From contig CALLKY010000019.1 in the NCBI GenBank assembly GCA_938083135.1, positions 1 to 46,850 on the forward strand: DNA of 46,850 bases, written 5' to 3'. Made by a program: the position numbers and the translations under genes. Of the stretch, positions 15,049 to 22,409 are shown one piece after another. The stretch's first letter is position 1. Each line of letters begins with the position of its first letter. The notes under the pieces are model-generated. The model saw only the letters and a program-made list of their open reading frames with translations. It did not search any database and was not told the DNA's origin. The stretch is from an uncultured Alphaproteobacteria bacterium (lineage in GTDB: Bacteria; Pseudomonadota; Alphaproteobacteria; Bin95).

Positions 15049-15131
15049 GCCGCTTCAAGGCCTGCCATTGATCTTGCCGCCATAGCCTGGAACCCTTGCA
15101 CCCTGAATTCTGGGTGAGGGAGCTGGCGTTT

Positions 15132-18100
15132 ATGGGCATCGCAAAATTACTGATCGCTAATCGGGGTGAAATTGCTATTCGCATTGCGCGGACGGCGGCG
15201 GATATGGGCATCGAAACCGTGGTCGTGCATTCCACGGATGACGCAGCCGCACTCCATGTCCGTGCTGGTGACGCTGCAGTGGCGCTGGATGGTGCAGGTC
15301 CGGCAGCCTATCTGGACCAGCAGGCGATCATTGCCGCAGCTAAAAGCGCCGGTGCAGATGCTATTCATCCAGGCTACGGCTTTCTTTCAGAGAACGCCGA
15401 GTTTGCCGCTGCTGTCGTATCTGCAGGTCTGACATTCGTAGGCCCAAAGGCAGACGCCATCGCCCGCTTTGGTGATAAGGGCGCGGCCCGCACGCTGGCT
15501 GAAGCGGCAGGCGTACCAATCGCCCCAGGCCTGCCAGCACCAGTGACAGAAGCGGATGCATTGGCCTTTCTGAATGAGATGGGTCCTGGCGGCGCTATCA
15601 TGTTGAAGGCGGCAGCAGGCGGCGGCGGGCGTGGGATGCGCCCAGTCAGCAATGCCGCCGACCTGCCTGATGCTTTCGCCCGGTCGCAGGCCGAAGCGGA
15701 AGCCGCATTCGGCGATGGCCGTCTCTATGCCGAGAAATTCTTTCAAACTGCGCGCCATATTGAAGTTCAAGTGGCAGGCGATAGTGCCGGGAACGCCGCC
15801 CATATCTGGGAGCGAGAGTGCAGTCTGCAACGCCAGCGCCAAAAGATCATTGAAATCGCACCTGCGCCGGCGCTGGCATCTGGTGTTCGCACACGGCTGC
15901 TTGATGCAGCAGTCGCCCTCGCAAAAGCCGCAGAGCTGGATAGCCTCTCAACGATTGAATTCTTGGTGGATGCCAAGACTGCAGCGGACGATGACAATGC
16001 CGAAATTGCTTTCATTGAAGCCAATGCCCGGCTGCAGGTGGAGCACACTGTTACAGAAGCTGTAACGGGCCTGGATCTCGTAGAAATTCAGCTGCGTTTA
16101 GCAGAAGGCGCGAGCCTTGCCGAAGTTGGTTTAAGTGTGCCGCCGCCCGTGCAAGGCATGGCACTGCAAGCCCGCATTAATATGGAAACGATGACTGCAT
16201 CCGGTGATGCGCGCCCTGCTGGCGGTCGTTTCACAGCGTTCGAGCCGCCAGCAGGGGCGGGGGTCCGGGTGGACCATGCTGGATATGCGGGTCTCTCGCC
16301 AAGTCCGCGGTTTGACTCACTGATCGCTAAGATGATCGTCCATGCCCGTTCTGGCGTGTTTGCTGATGTTGCAGCAAAAGCCGCCCGCGCGCTTGCTGGA
16401 TTCCGGATCGAAGGCGTTCCCACGAATACACGCTTTCTCGAGGCGCTGCTGGCGGACAAAGCCGTCACAACTTGCGCATTCGATACGCGTTTTATTGAAG
16501 CGCACGCTGAACGATTGCTTGGTGTGGAACCACCGCCACGGCGGTTTGTTGAGGCTGCGCCTGCAAGCGGCAGCCAAGCCGGACTCGCTGGATCGAAGAT
16601 TGATGCGTCCGATCCATTGGCAGTCCTGAACTTCGGGAAGCAGGATCAAGCGGCGGAAGCTGCAGCGCCATTGGATGCGCCGGACGGAACCAATGTCCTG
16701 GCCGCGCCGATGCAGGGTGCTGTCGTTAGCCTGGCTTTGGCGGCTGGTGAGACTGTCCGGGCAGGCACCACTATCTTGGTGATGGACGCCATGAAGATGC
16801 AGCACGATATCCGTGCTGATGTCTCCGGCATCATTCGGGCGTTTGCGGTCAATGAAGGCGATGTGGTGCTGGAAGGGGCACCCTTGGCCTATATCGAACC
16901 GGCTGAAGTTACGGCTGATGATGCAGACCAGGGCGAGGCAGTAGACCTGGACGCCATCCGCTCAGACTTGGCTGAAGTGATCGCGCGCCAAGCCAACACA
17001 CTGGACGAAAACCGCCCGGAGGCTGTCGCCAAGCGCCGGAAAACCAAGCAACGAACGGCCCGGGAGAATATTGAGGATCTGGTTGATCCAGGCTCCTTCA
17101 CTGAATACGGCTCCCTCGTGGTCGCTGCCCGTCGTGCGCGGATGAGCCGGGAGGAGCTATGGAAGCGGACGCCAGCGGATGGCCTTGTTACGGGCCTCGC
17201 GCGCGTGAATGGTGATCTTTTCGGGGATGCCGAGGCCCGCTGCATGGTCATGTCTTATGACTACACAGTGCTGGCTGGGACACAGGGCAAAAAGAACCAC
17301 GAGAAGAAGGACCGGATGTTTGAGCTGGCGGCGAAATGGCGGCTGCCGACCATTCTATTCGCTGAAGGTGGTGGCGGCCGACCGGGGGATACTGATGTCG
17401 TGTTCTCCGCCAACTTAACGACGCCGGCATTCCATCTTTTTGGGAAGCTTTCCGGGTTGGCGCCGATGATCGGCATTGCATCTGGCCGCTGTTTCGCCGG
17501 TAACGCCGTGCTGGTCGGTTGTTGCGATGTGATGATTGCGACGGAGAATGCGAATATCGGCATGGGCGGCCCAGCAATGATCGAAGGTGGTGGCCTCGGC
17601 GTTTTCCGTCCGGAAGACGTTGGCCCGATGAACGAGCAGACGGCCAACGGGGTCGTTGATATTTTGGTGAAGGATGAAGCTGAAGCCGTTGCCGTCGCTA
17701 AAAAATATCTCTCATACTTCCAAGGCCCAGTGCAGGAATGGAAAGCGGCGGACCAGCGAAAGCTCCGTCATATTGTGCCGGAGAACCGGGTCAAGGTTTA
17801 TGACATCCGGGAGGCGATTGACCTGATCGCGGATGAGGGGTCTGTGCTGGAATTACGCGCAGCCTTTGGGCGCGCAATGATCACAAGCTTCTGCAGAATC
17901 GAAGGTCGTCCAGTTGGCCTGATCGCCAACAATCCGATGCATATCGGTGGTGCGATTGACGCTGATGCAGCGGATAAAGCCGCCCGCTTCATGCAACTTT
18001 GTGACGCCTATGACATCCCGATGCTGTTCCTCTGCGACACGCCGGGCAACATGGTTGGGCCAGATTACGAGCGTCTGGCGTTGGTGCGCCACTGCTGCAG

Positions 18101-18512
18101 GCCATTCGTTATCAGCGCGAACATGACAGTGCCGTTGTTCACGGTGGTTCTGCGCAAGGCGTATGGACTTGGCGCGCAGGGCATGGCGGGCGGTGGGTTC
18201 CACACGCCAAACTTCGCAGTCGGCTGGCCAACGGCGGAATTTGGTGGCATGGGCCTTGAGGGTGCCGTGAAGCTTGGCTATCGCAACGAGTTAGCTGCAA
18301 TCGAAGACCCGGAAGAACGGCGCCGCGTTTACGAAGAAAAAGTCGCAGGCATGTATGATCAGGGCAAGGCGCTGACGGCAGCTGAACTTTTTGAGCTCGA
18401 CAACGTTATTGATCCAGCGGACACGCGCCGTTGGATCATCGAAGGTCTCCGCTCTGCACCGCCCCCCTTGCCACGCGAGGGTAAGAAACATGCCTGGGTC
18501 GATACATGGTGA
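15132..18512 (+). CDS. Single-chain biotin-dependent acyl-CoA carboxylase (BC-BCCP-CT fusion)
   Basis: This 1126-residue protein holds all carboxylase parts in one chain. The biotin carboxylase domain is at about 1-450 (IAKLLIANRGEIAIRI; ATP-grasp GGGGRGMR; EANARLQVEHTVTEAVTG). The biotinyl domain has MDAMKM with the biotinyl Lys near residue 555. The carboxyltransferase domain runs from about 620 to the end (LCDTPGNMVGP, AYGLGAQGMAGGGF). This order resembles the single-chain long-chain acyl-CoA carboxylases described from mycobacteria. Separate acetyl- or propionyl-CoA carboxylase subunits are the usual alternative. ATG 15132 has GAGGGAG upstream and starts at the conserved N-terminus; a longer frame from 15096 is less likely. 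The acyl-CoA substrate is not predictable. Confidence 0.9.
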   Translation: MGIAKLLIANRGEIAIRIARTAADMGIETVVVHSTDDAAALHVRAGDAAVALDGAGPAAYLDQQAIIAAAKSAGADAIHPGYGFLSENAEFAAAVVSAGLTFVGPKADAIARFGDKGAARTLAEAAGVPIAPGLPAPVTEADALAFLNEMGPGGAIMLKAAAGGGGRGMRPVSNAADLPDAFARSQAEAEAAFGDGRLYAEKFFQTARHIEVQVAGDSAGNAAHIWERECSLQRQRQKIIEIAPAPALASGVRTRLLDAAVALAKAAELDSLSTIEFLVDAKTAADDDNAEIAFIEANARLQVEHTVTEAVTGLDLVEIQLRLAEGASLAEVGLSVPPPVQGMALQARINMETMTASGDARPAGGRFTAFEPPAGAGVRVDHAGYAGLSPSPRFDSLIAKMIVHARSGVFADVAAKAARALAGFRIEGVPTNTRFLEALLADKAVTTCAFDTRFIEAHAERLLGVEPPPRRFVEAAPASGSQAGLAGSKIDASDPLAVLNFGKQDQAAEAAAPLDAPDGTNVLAAPMQGAVVSLALAAGETVRAGTTILVMDAMKMQHDIRADVSGIIRAFAVNEGDVVLEGAPLAYIEPAEVTADDADQGEAVDLDAIRSDLAEVIARQANTLDENRPEAVAKRRKTKQRTARENIEDLVDPGSFTEYGSLVVAARRARMSREELWKRTPADGLVTGLARVNGDLFGDAEARCMVMSYDYTVLAGTQGKKNHEKKDRMFELAAKWRLPTILFAEGGGGRPGDTDVVFSANLTTPAFHLFGKLSGLAPMIGIASGRCFAGNAVLVGCCDVMIATENANIGMGGPAMIEGGGLGVFRPEDVGPMNEQTANGVVDILVKDEAEAVAVAKKYLSYFQGPVQEWKAADQRKLRHIVPENRVKVYDIREAIDLIADEGSVLELRAAFGRAMITSFCRIEGRPVGLIANNPMHIGGAIDADAADKAARFMQLCDAYDIPMLFLCDTPGNMVGPDYERLALVRHCCRPFVISANMTVPLFTVVLRKAYGLGAQGMAGGGFHTPNFAVGWPTAEFGGMGLEGAVKLGYRNELAAIEDPEERRRVYEEKVAGMYDQGKALTAAELFELDNVIDPADTRRWIIEGLRSAPPPLPREGKKHAWVDTW

Positions 18513-18564: not shown

Positions 18565-19011
18565 ATGCCTTGGGGGAAAGGGCTGGGTTTGGCGACGGAC
18601 GTACAAAACGCCGACAGCGAGATCAGACATTTGCGGGAAACCGTGAATGCGTTGAGGGATGCGCTGGAAGCAAAGGATTCTGATGCGCGGCGTATGCGTG
18701 ATGACGCTTTGGAGATAGCCAAGGCCGAGCAGGATCAGCTTCGCGATACCATCGATGCATTGCGGACGGCGCTTGAGAAATCTGAAACTGAGCGCCATGA
18801 AATCGCTGCCGAGGCGCGCCATGCCGCTGAAGGCGAAGTCACCCAGTTAAAGCGCACGATTGACGCGCTTCGCGGCGAAATGGAATCGCTCGCTTCGGAC
18901 AAAGATGCGGCGCTGATTGCAGCCCAGGATCAGCACCGCAGCGAAATTCGCCAAATGCGTGATACAGTGTCTGCACTTAGAGATAAGCTTGAGGACGCGA
19001 ACAATGGATGA
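18565..19011 (+). CDS. Coiled-coil protein of 36-residue tandem repeats
   Basis: I do not recognise this 148-residue protein. After 20 residues it consists of three complete repeats of exactly 36 residues (21-56, 57-92, 93-128) and a 20-residue partial fourth (129-148). Each repeat begins with a motif like (Q/H/M)-L-R-x-T-(V/I)-x-A-L-R-x-x-L-E, and the rest is charged and Ala-rich. There is no signal peptide or membrane segment. The spacing equals ten turns of alpha helix, so the motif would recur on one face of a long rod. The stop overlaps the adenylate cyclase start by 8 bp, which implies translational coupling and a shared role, perhaps as a scaffold or regulator (inference). Confidence 0.75.
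   Translation: MPWGKGLGLATDVQNADSEIRHLRETVNALRDALEAKDSDARRMRDDALEIAKAEQDQLRDTIDALRTALEKSETERHEIAAEARHAAEGEVTQLKRTIDALRGEMESLASDKDAALIAAQDQHRSEIRQMRDTVSALRDKLEDANNG
18625..19008 (+). repeat. Coding tandem repeat, 108-bp period, 3.5 copies
   Basis: Four copies of the L-R-x-T-x-x-A-L-R-x-x-(L/M)-E motif start at 18625, 18733, 18841 and 18949, each 108 bp apart. The DNA copies are diverged while the protein motif is kept, which suggests selection on the protein and an old duplication. Confidence 0.75.
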
Positions 19012-21286
19012 CGTCCGATCACAGCATGCCCAGGGCGCAGATGCCGCTGCTAGCATGCAGCATATGCAGCTGCTGCTGGATGTATCCCGCAATGTCGCAG
19101 CGCTCGATTCACTTGACGCGGTGCTCGATGCCCTTGTGGCCGTCGCCGCAGAGCAGACCGACGCTGACCGCGCCACGCTCTATTTGGACGACCCTGAAAC
19201 AGGTGAGCTTTATTCCCGCATCGCCCAGGGCATTGGCCGCCGGGAAATTCGCTTGGGCCGGCATGAGGGCATCGCAGGCACTGTGTTTAAGGAAGGCCGG
19301 GCGCTCATTATTGATGACGCTTATTCCGATGAGCGATTTATGGGCCGGTTCGATTCTGAAACAGGCTTCAAGACGAAAACCATCCTTGCCGCGCCAATCC
19401 GCACACCCAAGGGCAAAGTCATTGGCGTTATTCAAGTTCTGAATAAGACGGATGGTATTTTTAGCGACAAAGACCGGGAAACGGTTGAGGCGATAACCGC
19501 ACAATGCGCAATCACGCTGGAATCATTGCAGCTGATTGAGCGGATGGAGAAGTCCCAGGCGCGGGAAAGCGCCTTTATGAACGTTGTTTCGGATATTACA
19601 TCCGAGCTTGAGCTGCCCAAGCTTTTGAACAAGGTCATGTCAGAAGCCGCCCGGCTGTTGAATGCCGAACGTTCGACGCTGTTTCTGAATGACGCCAAAA
19701 CGAATGAGCTTTTCAGCTATGTCGGCGCAGGCCTTGGCCAAACGCAGATCAGGCTGCCGAATTCTGCCGGTATCGCAGGTGCGGTTTTCACGTCCAGCGA
19801 GTCCGTGAATATTCCCTACGCCTATGCAGACCTCCGCTTTAATCCATCTTTTGACCGCCAGACCGGGTTCTTCACGCGCTCCATTTTATGTGTGCCTGTC
19901 GTCAACAAGTCCGGCACTGTCATTGGCGTTACACAGGCGCTGAATAAAGTCGGTGGACCATTCAGCGATGATGATGAGCATCGCCTGCGCGCATTTACTG
20001 CACAGGTCGCAATTGGCCTGGAGAACGCAAAGCTCTTCGATGATGTGCAGGCCATGCGCAACTACAATGAAGCCATGCTGCAATCCATGTCGAACGGCGT
20101 GATTACGTTCGATGGTGATGGTGCCACGCGCACCTGCAACGCAGCCGGTGGTCGTATTCTGCGCATTGATCCCGAAGCCGCAGCGGGCCAACCAATGGCC
20201 GATGTGTTCGGTGAGGCGAACCAGTGGCTGATCGACCGCGCCCAACGGGTTTGTGAGACAAACGAGCCTGATATCGCCGTGGATGCAGAAATTCAGGCGG
20301 AGGGCGAGACAGTCTCTGTCAATGTCACCGTGCTGCCGTTGAGTGCGGGTGAGGAAGAGACTCTCGGCGTTATGGTGATGCTGGAAGACATCTCCAACGA
20401 GAAGCGCGTTAAGTCCACATTGTCCCGCTATATGGACCCGGACATTGCGGATCAACTGCTTTCAGGCGAAAGCGGTGAGGCGGCCCTTGGCGGCAAGCAG
20501 TCTGTCGCGACAGTACTGTTCTCCGATATTCGCGGGTTCACGACGATCTCTGAGAAATTGGGCGCTGCCGGGACAGTCGCCATGCTCAATGATTATTTTG
20601 AACACATGGTCGAATGTATTTCAGACCAGGGCGGCATGCTCGATAAGTTCATTGGGGATGCCATTATGGCCGTCTTTGGCGTGCCTTTGCCCCATGCAGA
20701 CGATCCAGACCGCGGCGTGCGTGCAGCCATCAACATGCAGAGGGCGCTCCAAGCTTGGAGCCCGACAGATCCGGATGGCAATGAATTCCCGCTGCACATC
20801 GGCGTCGGTCTCAATACCGATACGGTGGTTGCGGGCAATATCGGCAGCAAGAAGCGGATGGATTACACGATCATCGGTGATGGCGTGAACTTGGCCGCGC
20901 GGCTTGAATCTGCCTGTAAGCAGTATGGTGCGCAGATCCTGCTGTCCGAACTAACGGTCAATAAGCTAAAAGGTGCCTATCGGCTGCGCCAACTCGACTA
21001 TGTCGTTGTGAAGGGCAAGACAGAGCCTGTGTCGATCTATGAATGTATGGATCACCACACTGAAGAAACTTGCCCAAACTTGATGGATGTCATGGGCTTG
21101 TTTGCAGATGGGCTGCAACGGTATCGCGCCCAGGACTTTGTCCGCGCCCGCGAACGGTTTATTGACGTGCAGAAGGCGCGTGCCGATGACGTCCCTGCAG
21201 CGACATATATTGAGCGCTGCGATGTCCTGCTGAAAGAACCGCCGCCAGAGGATTGGGATGGCGTTTGGATTATGACCGAGAAATAG
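19004..21286 (+). CDS. GAF-GAF-PAS adenylate cyclase (class III, CyaB1-like architecture)
   Basis: This 760-residue protein has two GAF domains (about 45-185 and 215-355), a PAS-like region (about 370-480) and a class III cyclase domain (about 495-690). Metal ligands are Asp508 (FSDIRGF) and Asp552 (KFIGDAIM). Lys548 and Asp620 (MDYTIIGDGVN) are the pair that selects ATP over GTP, so cAMP is the likely product. GAF2 has a complete NKFDE signature (N314, K315, F320, D324, E325), and GAF1 a near copy (N147, K148, F153, D157, then Arg). That motif marks cyclic-nucleotide-binding GAFs in PDEs and Anabaena CyaB1/CyaB2. No membrane segment is seen. ATG 19004 overlaps the repeat-protein gene by 8 bp. 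Confidence 0.88.
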   Translation: MDDVRSQHAQGADAAASMQHMQLLLDVSRNVAALDSLDAVLDALVAVAAEQTDADRATLYLDDPETGELYSRIAQGIGRREIRLGRHEGIAGTVFKEGRALIIDDAYSDERFMGRFDSETGFKTKTILAAPIRTPKGKVIGVIQVLNKTDGIFSDKDRETVEAITAQCAITLESLQLIERMEKSQARESAFMNVVSDITSELELPKLLNKVMSEAARLLNAERSTLFLNDAKTNELFSYVGAGLGQTQIRLPNSAGIAGAVFTSSESVNIPYAYADLRFNPSFDRQTGFFTRSILCVPVVNKSGTVIGVTQALNKVGGPFSDDDEHRLRAFTAQVAIGLENAKLFDDVQAMRNYNEAMLQSMSNGVITFDGDGATRTCNAAGGRILRIDPEAAAGQPMADVFGEANQWLIDRAQRVCETNEPDIAVDAEIQAEGETVSVNVTVLPLSAGEEETLGVMVMLEDISNEKRVKSTLSRYMDPDIADQLLSGESGEAALGGKQSVATVLFSDIRGFTTISEKLGAAGTVAMLNDYFEHMVECISDQGGMLDKFIGDAIMAVFGVPLPHADDPDRGVRAAINMQRALQAWSPTDPDGNEFPLHIGVGLNTDTVVAGNIGSKKRMDYTIIGDGVNLAARLESACKQYGAQILLSELTVNKLKGAYRLRQLDYVVVKGKTEPVSIYECMDHHTEETCPNLMDVMGLFADGLQRYRAQDFVRARERFIDVQKARADDVPAATYIERCDVLLKEPPPEDWDGVWIMTEK

Positions 21287-21293
21287 ACGACCA

Positions 21294-22409
21294 ATGACAC
21301 ACCCGCACCCGATCAACAGCGGCAACGCTATGAAGCTTGGCATCATGGCGTTTAATTGTAGTGGCGGGTCAACGGTGACGACGGCACCTGAAGCCTGGCC
21401 AATGACTTGGTCTGATAACGTTAAACTCGCTAAATTGGCGGACGACGCTGGGTTCGAAGCGCTGCTGCCTGTTGGTCGCTGGAAAGGCTATGGCGGGCCA
21501 TCAAACTTCAATAACTCCACGTTCGAAAGCTTCACCTGGGCTGCTGGCATCGCAGCGGTGACGGAACGGATTGCCGTATGCGCCACGATCCACGCCCCAT
21601 TGGCGCATCCAGTGATGGCAGCCAAGCAAGCGGCGACGATTGATCATATTTCCGGCGGGCGCTTTGTTCTAAACATCGTCTGCGGCTGGTTTCGCGAAGA
21701 GTTCGAGATGTTCGCTGCTGAGTGGCGTGACCATGACCGGCGCTATGAGTACGCCGCTGAATGGTTGGCGTTGGCTCGGCAAGCCTGGACAGAGACTGAA
21801 CCGTTTGATTTCAACGGTGCGTTCTTTACTGGGAAGGCGATCTGGAGCGAGCCCAAGCCCCTGCAAGGCGGTGAGCTGCAGATTATGAATGCAGGGTCAT
21901 CGCCTACCGGGCAGCGTTTTTCCGCCGAAAATTGCGACATGAACTTCGTTATGCTGCGCCAGAAAGACGAGGCCAGCGACCGTGCACAGATAGGCGGTTT
22001 AAAGACGATGGCCGTGAATGCTGGGCGCAAATCACAGTGCTGGATCCACGGCTATGGTGTGTGCCGTGGAACCCAGGCGGAGGCTGACGCGTATCTTCAC
22101 CGGTATGTCGAGGACTTTGGCGATGACGAGGCTGTTGGCAATATGCTGTCGATCTTCGGCATGGAGTCAGAGACGCTTGAACCAGCAGTGATGGATGCAT
22201 TCCGGTTTCACTTTAAGGCCGGGCACGGTGGGTATCCGCTGGTCGGGACGCCGGCGAAGATTGTAGATGATATGGTGCGCCTGCGCGCCATGGGTGTTGA
22301 TGGCATCTTGCTGTCCTGGCTGGATTATTTGGGGGAAGCCCAACAATGGGTCGACGAAGTGCTGCCGCTTATGGAAGCCGCTGGATTACGCTCGCCGCAC
22401 TCGCCCTAG
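21294..22409 (+). CDS. LLM-class flavin-dependent monooxygenase (SfnG/RutA-like)
   Basis: This 371-residue luciferase-like monooxygenase has AATIDHISGGRFVLNIVCGWFREEFEMF, broken here as ISGGRFVLNIVCGWFREEF. It also has RRYEYAAEWLALARQAW and a C-terminal LVGTPAKIVDDMVRLRAMGVDGILLSW. These resemble both dimethylsulfone monooxygenase SfnG and pyrimidine oxygenase RutA. The substrate is undecided, and no flavin reductase is adjacent. An internal ATG at 21330 (MKLGIMAF) is an alternative start that begins directly at the barrel's first strand. The start lies 7 bp after the cyclase stop, and the 3' end overlaps mepA by 64 bp. Confidence 0.82.
   Translation: MTHPHPINSGNAMKLGIMAFNCSGGSTVTTAPEAWPMTWSDNVKLAKLADDAGFEALLPVGRWKGYGGPSNFNNSTFESFTWAAGIAAVTERIAVCATIHAPLAHPVMAAKQAATIDHISGGRFVLNIVCGWFREEFEMFAAEWRDHDRRYEYAAEWLALARQAWTETEPFDFNGAFFTGKAIWSEPKPLQGGELQIMNAGSSPTGQRFSAENCDMNFVMLRQKDEASDRAQIGGLKTMAVNAGRKSQCWIHGYGVCRGTQAEADAYLHRYVEDFGDDEAVGNMLSIFGMESETLEPAVMDAFRFHFKAGHGGYPLVGTPAKIVDDMVRLRAMGVDGILLSWLDYLGEAQQWVDEVLPLMEAAGLRSPHSP

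Follow-up and report, generated by a model that had tools for sequence, protein, structure and literature searches.

The window, a 46,850-nucleotide stretch of DNA from an uncultured alphaproteobacterium (contig CALLKY010000019.1), contains two genes on the forward strand in which a short gene for a repeat protein (ORF1) runs into a longer gene for a predicted cyclase (ORF2). Their features are listed in Table 1. A mechanical list of open reading frames starts ORF2 at a TTG at 18917; the nearest relatives favor the ATG at 19004. With that start the genes overlap by 8 bp, as the initial annotation had proposed, and relatives have similar overlaps or short gaps between repeat gene and cyclase, so that ORF1 and ORF2 are likely to be translationally coupled. 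Directly upstream of the repeat gene, at 15096-18512, a single protein carries biotin carboxylase, biotin carrier, and carboxyltransferase domains. Downstream, a luciferase-like monooxygenase gene (21294-22409, +) starts 7 nt past the cyclase stop, and such a gene also adjoins the cyclase in the closest relative (L047).

Table 1. Features of the ORF1-ORF2 locus, in window positions; aa numbering refers to ORF2.
Feature	Positions	Strand	Description
ORF1	18565..19011	+	148 aa, 36-residue coiled-coil units; dedicated partner of ORF2
Repeat unit 1	18619..18726	+	starts EIRHLRETVNALRDALE
Repeat unit 2	18727..18834	+	starts EQDQLRDTIDALRTALE
Repeat unit 3	18835..18942	+	starts EVTQLKRTIDALRGEME
Repeat unit 4, partial	18943..19008	+	EIRQMRDTVSALRDKLE and C-terminus
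ORF1 stop / ORF2 start overlap, 8 bp	19004..19011	+	
ORF2	19004..21286	+	760-aa GAF-GAF-PAS-class III adenylyl cyclase (predicted)
GAF1	19112..19519	+	aa 37-172; NKFDE without final Glu
GAF2	19613..20026	+	aa 204-341; complete NKFDE, candidate cAMP site
PAS domain	20069..20407	+	aa 356-468
Class III catalytic domain	20507..21025	+	aa 502-674; D508, K548, D552, T622, N629, R633
C-terminal three-helix, TPR-like tail	21074..21235	+	aa 691-744, from model

The four units of ORF1 are spaced exactly 36 residues apart. A motif search that imposed no spacing counted 268 units in 54 ORF1 homologs, and the 230 in-phase intervals between units take only the values 36 (206 times), 72 (17 times), and 108 (7 times), the dominant phase holding 284 of the 302 motif matches. 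The core of the unit is E-x3-L-x2-T-x3-L-R-x2-L-E, with the consensus E-I-R-Q-L-K-E-T-I-Q-A-L-R-D-E-L-E; its Arg hardly varies, to some extent because the search motif demands it. One reading of the hydrophobic pattern places ten core positions in each 36 residues, a step of 3.6 residues, and by standard coiled-coil reasoning the repeat would therefore form a nearly straight bundle, equivalent to two heptads plus two hendecads. Array length varies among homologs from 2 to 13 units. In one genus (g339), five genomes (L156, L162, L163, L172, and L178) encode repeat proteins of ∼198 to 496 residues beside cyclases that are alike, the length differences representing whole 36-residue units gained and lost. 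Recent tandem duplication of DNA was rejected as the source of the period, since no 108-bp tandem array was found in the two long repeat genes scanned and the ORF1 gene of the window contains only weak short repeats. Against Pfam and NCBIfam, ORF1 scores below every curated cut-off shown and matches no named coiled-coil family. A 544-residue homolog (L104) exceeds the cut-off of Phage_tail_APC alone (29.9 against a cut-off of 26.6, with no single stretch passing); this match was set aside as a chance coiled-coil match, and no named family convincingly covers the repeat.

A profile built from six relatives of ORF1 matches 31 of the 385 genomes of the class and 25 of the 398 genomes of a phylum sample; 23 of the latter are new, and most of these come from other classes of the phylum. 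Within the class the repeat gene lies directly upstream of a cyclase ortholog on the same strand, repeat first, with two exceptions to the simple picture. The contig of G207 stops soon after the repeat gene, its cyclase starting at the end of another contig; in G376 the cyclase starts normally behind the repeat gene and breaks off inside GAF1. The broken cyclase is followed by an unrelated ORF (L180, G376:C61), reflecting either gene decay or a chimeric contig. Cyclases beside a repeat gene are 52-79% identical to ORF2. All 23 further genomes of the phylum sample have the cyclase adjacent in the same strand and order, and in one of them the two share a reading frame. Chance coiled-coil matches are ruled out, because each profile match adjoins a cyclase.

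The converse search with the cyclase gives the same picture: matches of at least 52% identity all have a repeat gene upstream unless the contig ends (for example G325), and in G505, missed by the ORF1 profile, the repeat gene is present in the upstream DNA. No cyclase ortholog with readable upstream DNA was found without the repeat gene, and no repeat gene was found apart from an ORF2-type cyclase in more than 700 genomes. Repeat units are absent from the 1.5 kb upstream of the eight sister cyclases examined, which have the same layout (44-48% identity); relatives at this distance include a GAF-GAF-PAS-cyclase paralog in the window's own genome (L039:1049-3442 (-), G000:C135; 45% identity), which has no repeat gene. 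In a maximum-likelihood tree, 44 repeat-linked cyclases fall on one side of a single branch with support of 100/100. The test of synteny proposed with the initial annotation is thus passed, the pair being kept in about 57 genomes, which is far beyond chance. As judged from dN of 0.027 and dS of 0.79 relative to its closest relative, ORF1 is under purifying selection, and these values together with the recurrence of the pair indicate that it is a real gene. The description of the pair as an alphaproteobacterial version with a dedicated coiled-coil partner stands with respect to the dedicated partner and has to be widened with respect to taxonomy, the pair occurring also in other classes of the phylum. 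A search for plasmid-borne relatives with named hosts gave no match. The record of one relative, L050 (CAMDSO010000057.1), bears the title Bordetella parapertussis, a doubtful species name; it is a metagenome bin, and its cyclase falls among alphaproteobacterial ones. In one family of small genomes, a gene with a weak HD-domain match (L042:1571-2320 (-), L094:1492-2208 (-); in one of them a score of 22.1 against a cut-off of 22) overlaps or adjoins the 3' end of the cyclase gene; its product may be a phosphodiesterase for cyclic nucleotides, encoded in one operon with the cyclase.

Pfam matches in ORF2 comprise two GAF domains (1.6e-40), PAS_4 (1.7e-12), PAS (2.5e-11), and Guanylate_cyc (3.9e-24). 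Both this order and the structural model reproduce the layout of Anabaena CyaB1, a cyclase activated by cAMP, to which the initial annotation had likened the protein. The model has a mean pLDDT of 81.9 and a pTM of 0.41, and the arrangement of its domains is therefore unreliable. The three-helix tail at the C-terminus of ORF2 matches TPR_2 in one ortholog (L175), weakly and below cut-off. Lysine and threonine at the substrate positions are the adenylyl pattern of class IIIb cyclases. When the active site was aligned with those of 3r5g, Cya2 (2w01), and the E488K-derived construct 6fht, ORF2 was found to have the complete residue set of this class: the metal-binding Asp 508 and Asp 552, Lys 548 and Thr 622 at the substrate positions, and Asn 629 and Arg 633 for the transition state. 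These six residues are invariant in 44 sequences. The Glu that replaces the substrate Lys in guanylyl cyclases (E488 in Cya2) is absent, Lys occupying the position of K548 in 44 of 44; in Cya2 the Glu-to-Lys switch E488K converts the guanylyl into an adenylyl cyclase (PMC5995499). It is thus very probable from the active-site residues that ORF2 makes cAMP, and the preference for ATP over GTP expected at the outset is predicted by K548 and T622. The cGMP-making cyclase of Rhodospirillum centenum was set aside as a reference, since ORF2 has ATP-type residues at its substrate positions. With 15 matches to cNMP_binding, of which three lie within one ORF, the window's genome is likely to encode cAMP receptors. 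It also has 10 class III cyclase matches, and the ORF1-ORF2 unit is therefore one among several possible sources of cyclic nucleotide.

The NKFDE motif of GAF2 is complete (N314 K315 ... F320 x3 D324 E325, reading NK...F-SDD-DE), in ORF2 as in all 44 orthologs. That of GAF1 (N147 K148 ... F153 x3 D157, reading NK...F-SDK-D-R) has R158 in place of Glu, and across the orthologs this column is mostly Leu, with Glu absent from the residues listed. An earlier reading of the motif as full in GAF2 and near-complete in GAF1 is therefore accurate, only the last Glu of GAF1 being gone. NKFDE alone is no proof of cyclic nucleotide binding. The closest folds to the ORF2 model are all cyclic-nucleotide-binding tandem GAFs, the best match being the tandem GAF of Anabaena CyaB2 (1ykd) at about 31% identity. 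In GAFb of CyaB2 the ligand is surrounded by T293, I308, T309, D356, and N359 (PMC4411481); mapped on the alignment, the GAF2 equivalents are T225, V240, G241, D284, and T287, preceded by R223. Nearly all 44 sequences have in GAF2 the Arg, Thr or Ser, the hydrophobic stacking residue, the Asp, and all of NKFDE. In GAF1 the base-stacking position equivalent to I308 is variable, which, with the missing last residue of NKFDE, leaves only GAF2 as a good candidate for a cAMP site; on these residues GAF2 is a credible site and GAF1 a doubtful one. At the position after TG[YF] of GAF2, sister cyclases mostly have Arg or Lys, as do CyaB2 and PDE5. In the repeat-linked clade this residue, next to the conserved T-G, is an invariant Phe (F290, window 19871-19873), which may alter pocket chemistry or ligand choice.

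Pocket conservation in GAF2 suggests that cAMP is probably its ligand, and feedback of cAMP on the cyclase is plausible on the same grounds. Alternatively, the GAF tandem might not bind cAMP, NKFDE being structural and the ligand another small molecule or none; ORF2 would then simply sense through its PAS and GAF domains, with ORF1 as a structural partner and no cAMP feedback. The loss of the GAF1 Glu, the variable stacking position of GAF1, and F290 in place of the usual Arg or Lys are consistent with this explanation, as is the wide range of ligands bound by GAF domains (PMC4411481). Nevertheless, retention of the GAF2 pocket residues and NKFDE in nearly all 44 sequences and the ligand type of the nearest folds argue against it, and loss of cAMP binding is considered a lesser, although real, possibility.

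The repeat protein and the cyclase are joined naturally in one genome, where three repeat units, at spacings of 36 and 38, are followed within a single 888-residue ORF (L175, G419) by a Pro-rich linker and then by the cyclase. Such a fusion is a classical hint of functional interaction and is not proof of contact. Its model has helices at residues 9-75 and 91-120, and confidence is low at 121-140; with the linker in the low-confidence part, the model shows no rigid route by which the rod could signal to GAF1, and it is uninformative as proof of contact. A MAFFT alignment of separate repeat proteins to the N-terminus of the fusion misplaced the repeats. Residues conserved only in the repeat-linked clade are scattered over the domains of the cyclase with no clustering in any one of them, so that no docking site is visible. 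The fusion sets the repeats at the N-terminus beside GAF1, and GAF1, having lost the final NKFDE residue, could take another input. Both points, together with the strict one-to-one linkage and fixed gene order, are compatible with ORF1 being an allosteric regulator or sensor subunit, responding to the membrane, another protein, or the cell pole and acting through the N-terminal/GAF1 region. However, the enzyme changes little while the array ranges from 2 to 13 units, and the fusion linker is predicted to be flexible; a scaffold accounts for both more readily than a rigid allosteric lever does. An allosteric role is accordingly considered rather unlikely, and the rod is probably in the main a scaffold. 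That the genes are mere neighbors, ORF1 being a general cytoskeletal or chaperone-like coiled coil co-transcribed by chance, would fit the commonness of coiled coils and is strongly disfavored, indeed highly improbable, given the absence of separate repeat genes from more than 700 genomes, the repeat gene before every ortholog with readable upstream DNA, flanking genes that otherwise differ on both sides, and the natural fusion.

The two proteins almost certainly work together. The explanation that we favor is that ORF2 is an adenylyl cyclase of the CyaB1 type and that ORF1 is its own dedicated scaffold or regulator, a straight coiled coil. Both genes would form one conserved signaling unit, probably coupled in translation, in which ORF2 acts as a soluble class IIIb adenylyl cyclase converting ATP to cAMP. 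Binding of cAMP, probably to GAF2, would raise the activity and create a positive feedback switch, with the PAS domain as a putative second input. ORF1 would be a straight, hardly supercoiled rod of 2 to 13 units in one fixed phase that most likely self-associates, binds the cyclase physically, and holds cyclase dimers or brings them into clusters, and it may thereby determine where they are located or how active they are. This explanation as a whole, feedback included, is judged probable, because its central claim is that of a dedicated partner of an adenylyl cyclase. A more speculative and rather less likely extension is that the rods, as a new family, gather copies of a single cyclase into multi-enzyme foci of cAMP, in which the unit count of a rod would determine how many enzymes it binds.

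The enzyme type and its layout are already known, and the partner family appears undescribed, with sampling that covers one phylum and with an earlier description or members elsewhere possible. No description of the pair was found in the open-access papers searched, most subscription papers lying outside that search, and Pfam, NCBIfam, and those papers yielded neither the partner family nor its exact period or strict tie to one cyclase clade. Tandem-GAF cyclases of bacteria have so far been studied as lone enzymes. The retention of a partner across several classes and the fixed 36-residue phase suggest that assembly contributes to the working of the switch, and the pair offers a test case for the spatial organization of cAMP in bacteria. 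If the proposal of foci is true, ORF1 would be a bacterial scaffold reserved for a cAMP switch that activates itself. A helix repeat of exact period could also serve as a molecular ruler or scaffold part.

Among known systems, the closest in design is Anabaena CyaB1, a GAF-GAF-PAS-cyclase that acts as a self-activating cAMP switch (PMC4411481). ORF2 resembles it in domain order, predicted substrate, NKFDE in GAF2, and class III catalytic domain, and differs in the incomplete motif of GAF1, so that it is CyaB1-like in layout only; whether a double NKFDE truly defines the CyaB1 type is uncertain. We know of no coiled-coil partner gene for CyaB1. Equivalents of R291, T293, I308, and D356 of CyaB2 are recognizable in ORF2, whereas N359 and R362 of GAFb correspond to T287 and F290 of GAF2; the GAFa domain of CyaB2 has Val at the I308 position, as does GAF2 with V240. 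Mammalian PDE2, PDE5, and PDE10 also have regulatory tandem GAFs, PDE5 giving the top sequence scores for the GAF part of ORF2, although theirs sit on phosphodiesterases and those of ORF2 on a cyclase. By sequence, the closest solved catalytic domain is that of Pseudomonas aeruginosa CyaB (3r5g, 38-39% identity), which shares the RMDYTIIG Lys/Thr pattern; the N-terminal part of that enzyme is unlike that of ORF2. Cyanobacterial CCRPs (PMC7002697) and Streptomyces Scy (PMC3718342) are, like ORF1, helical rods, and they organize other proteins. No family common to them and ORF1 was found, and ORF1 differs in having an exact 36-residue unit and in being tied to one enzyme.
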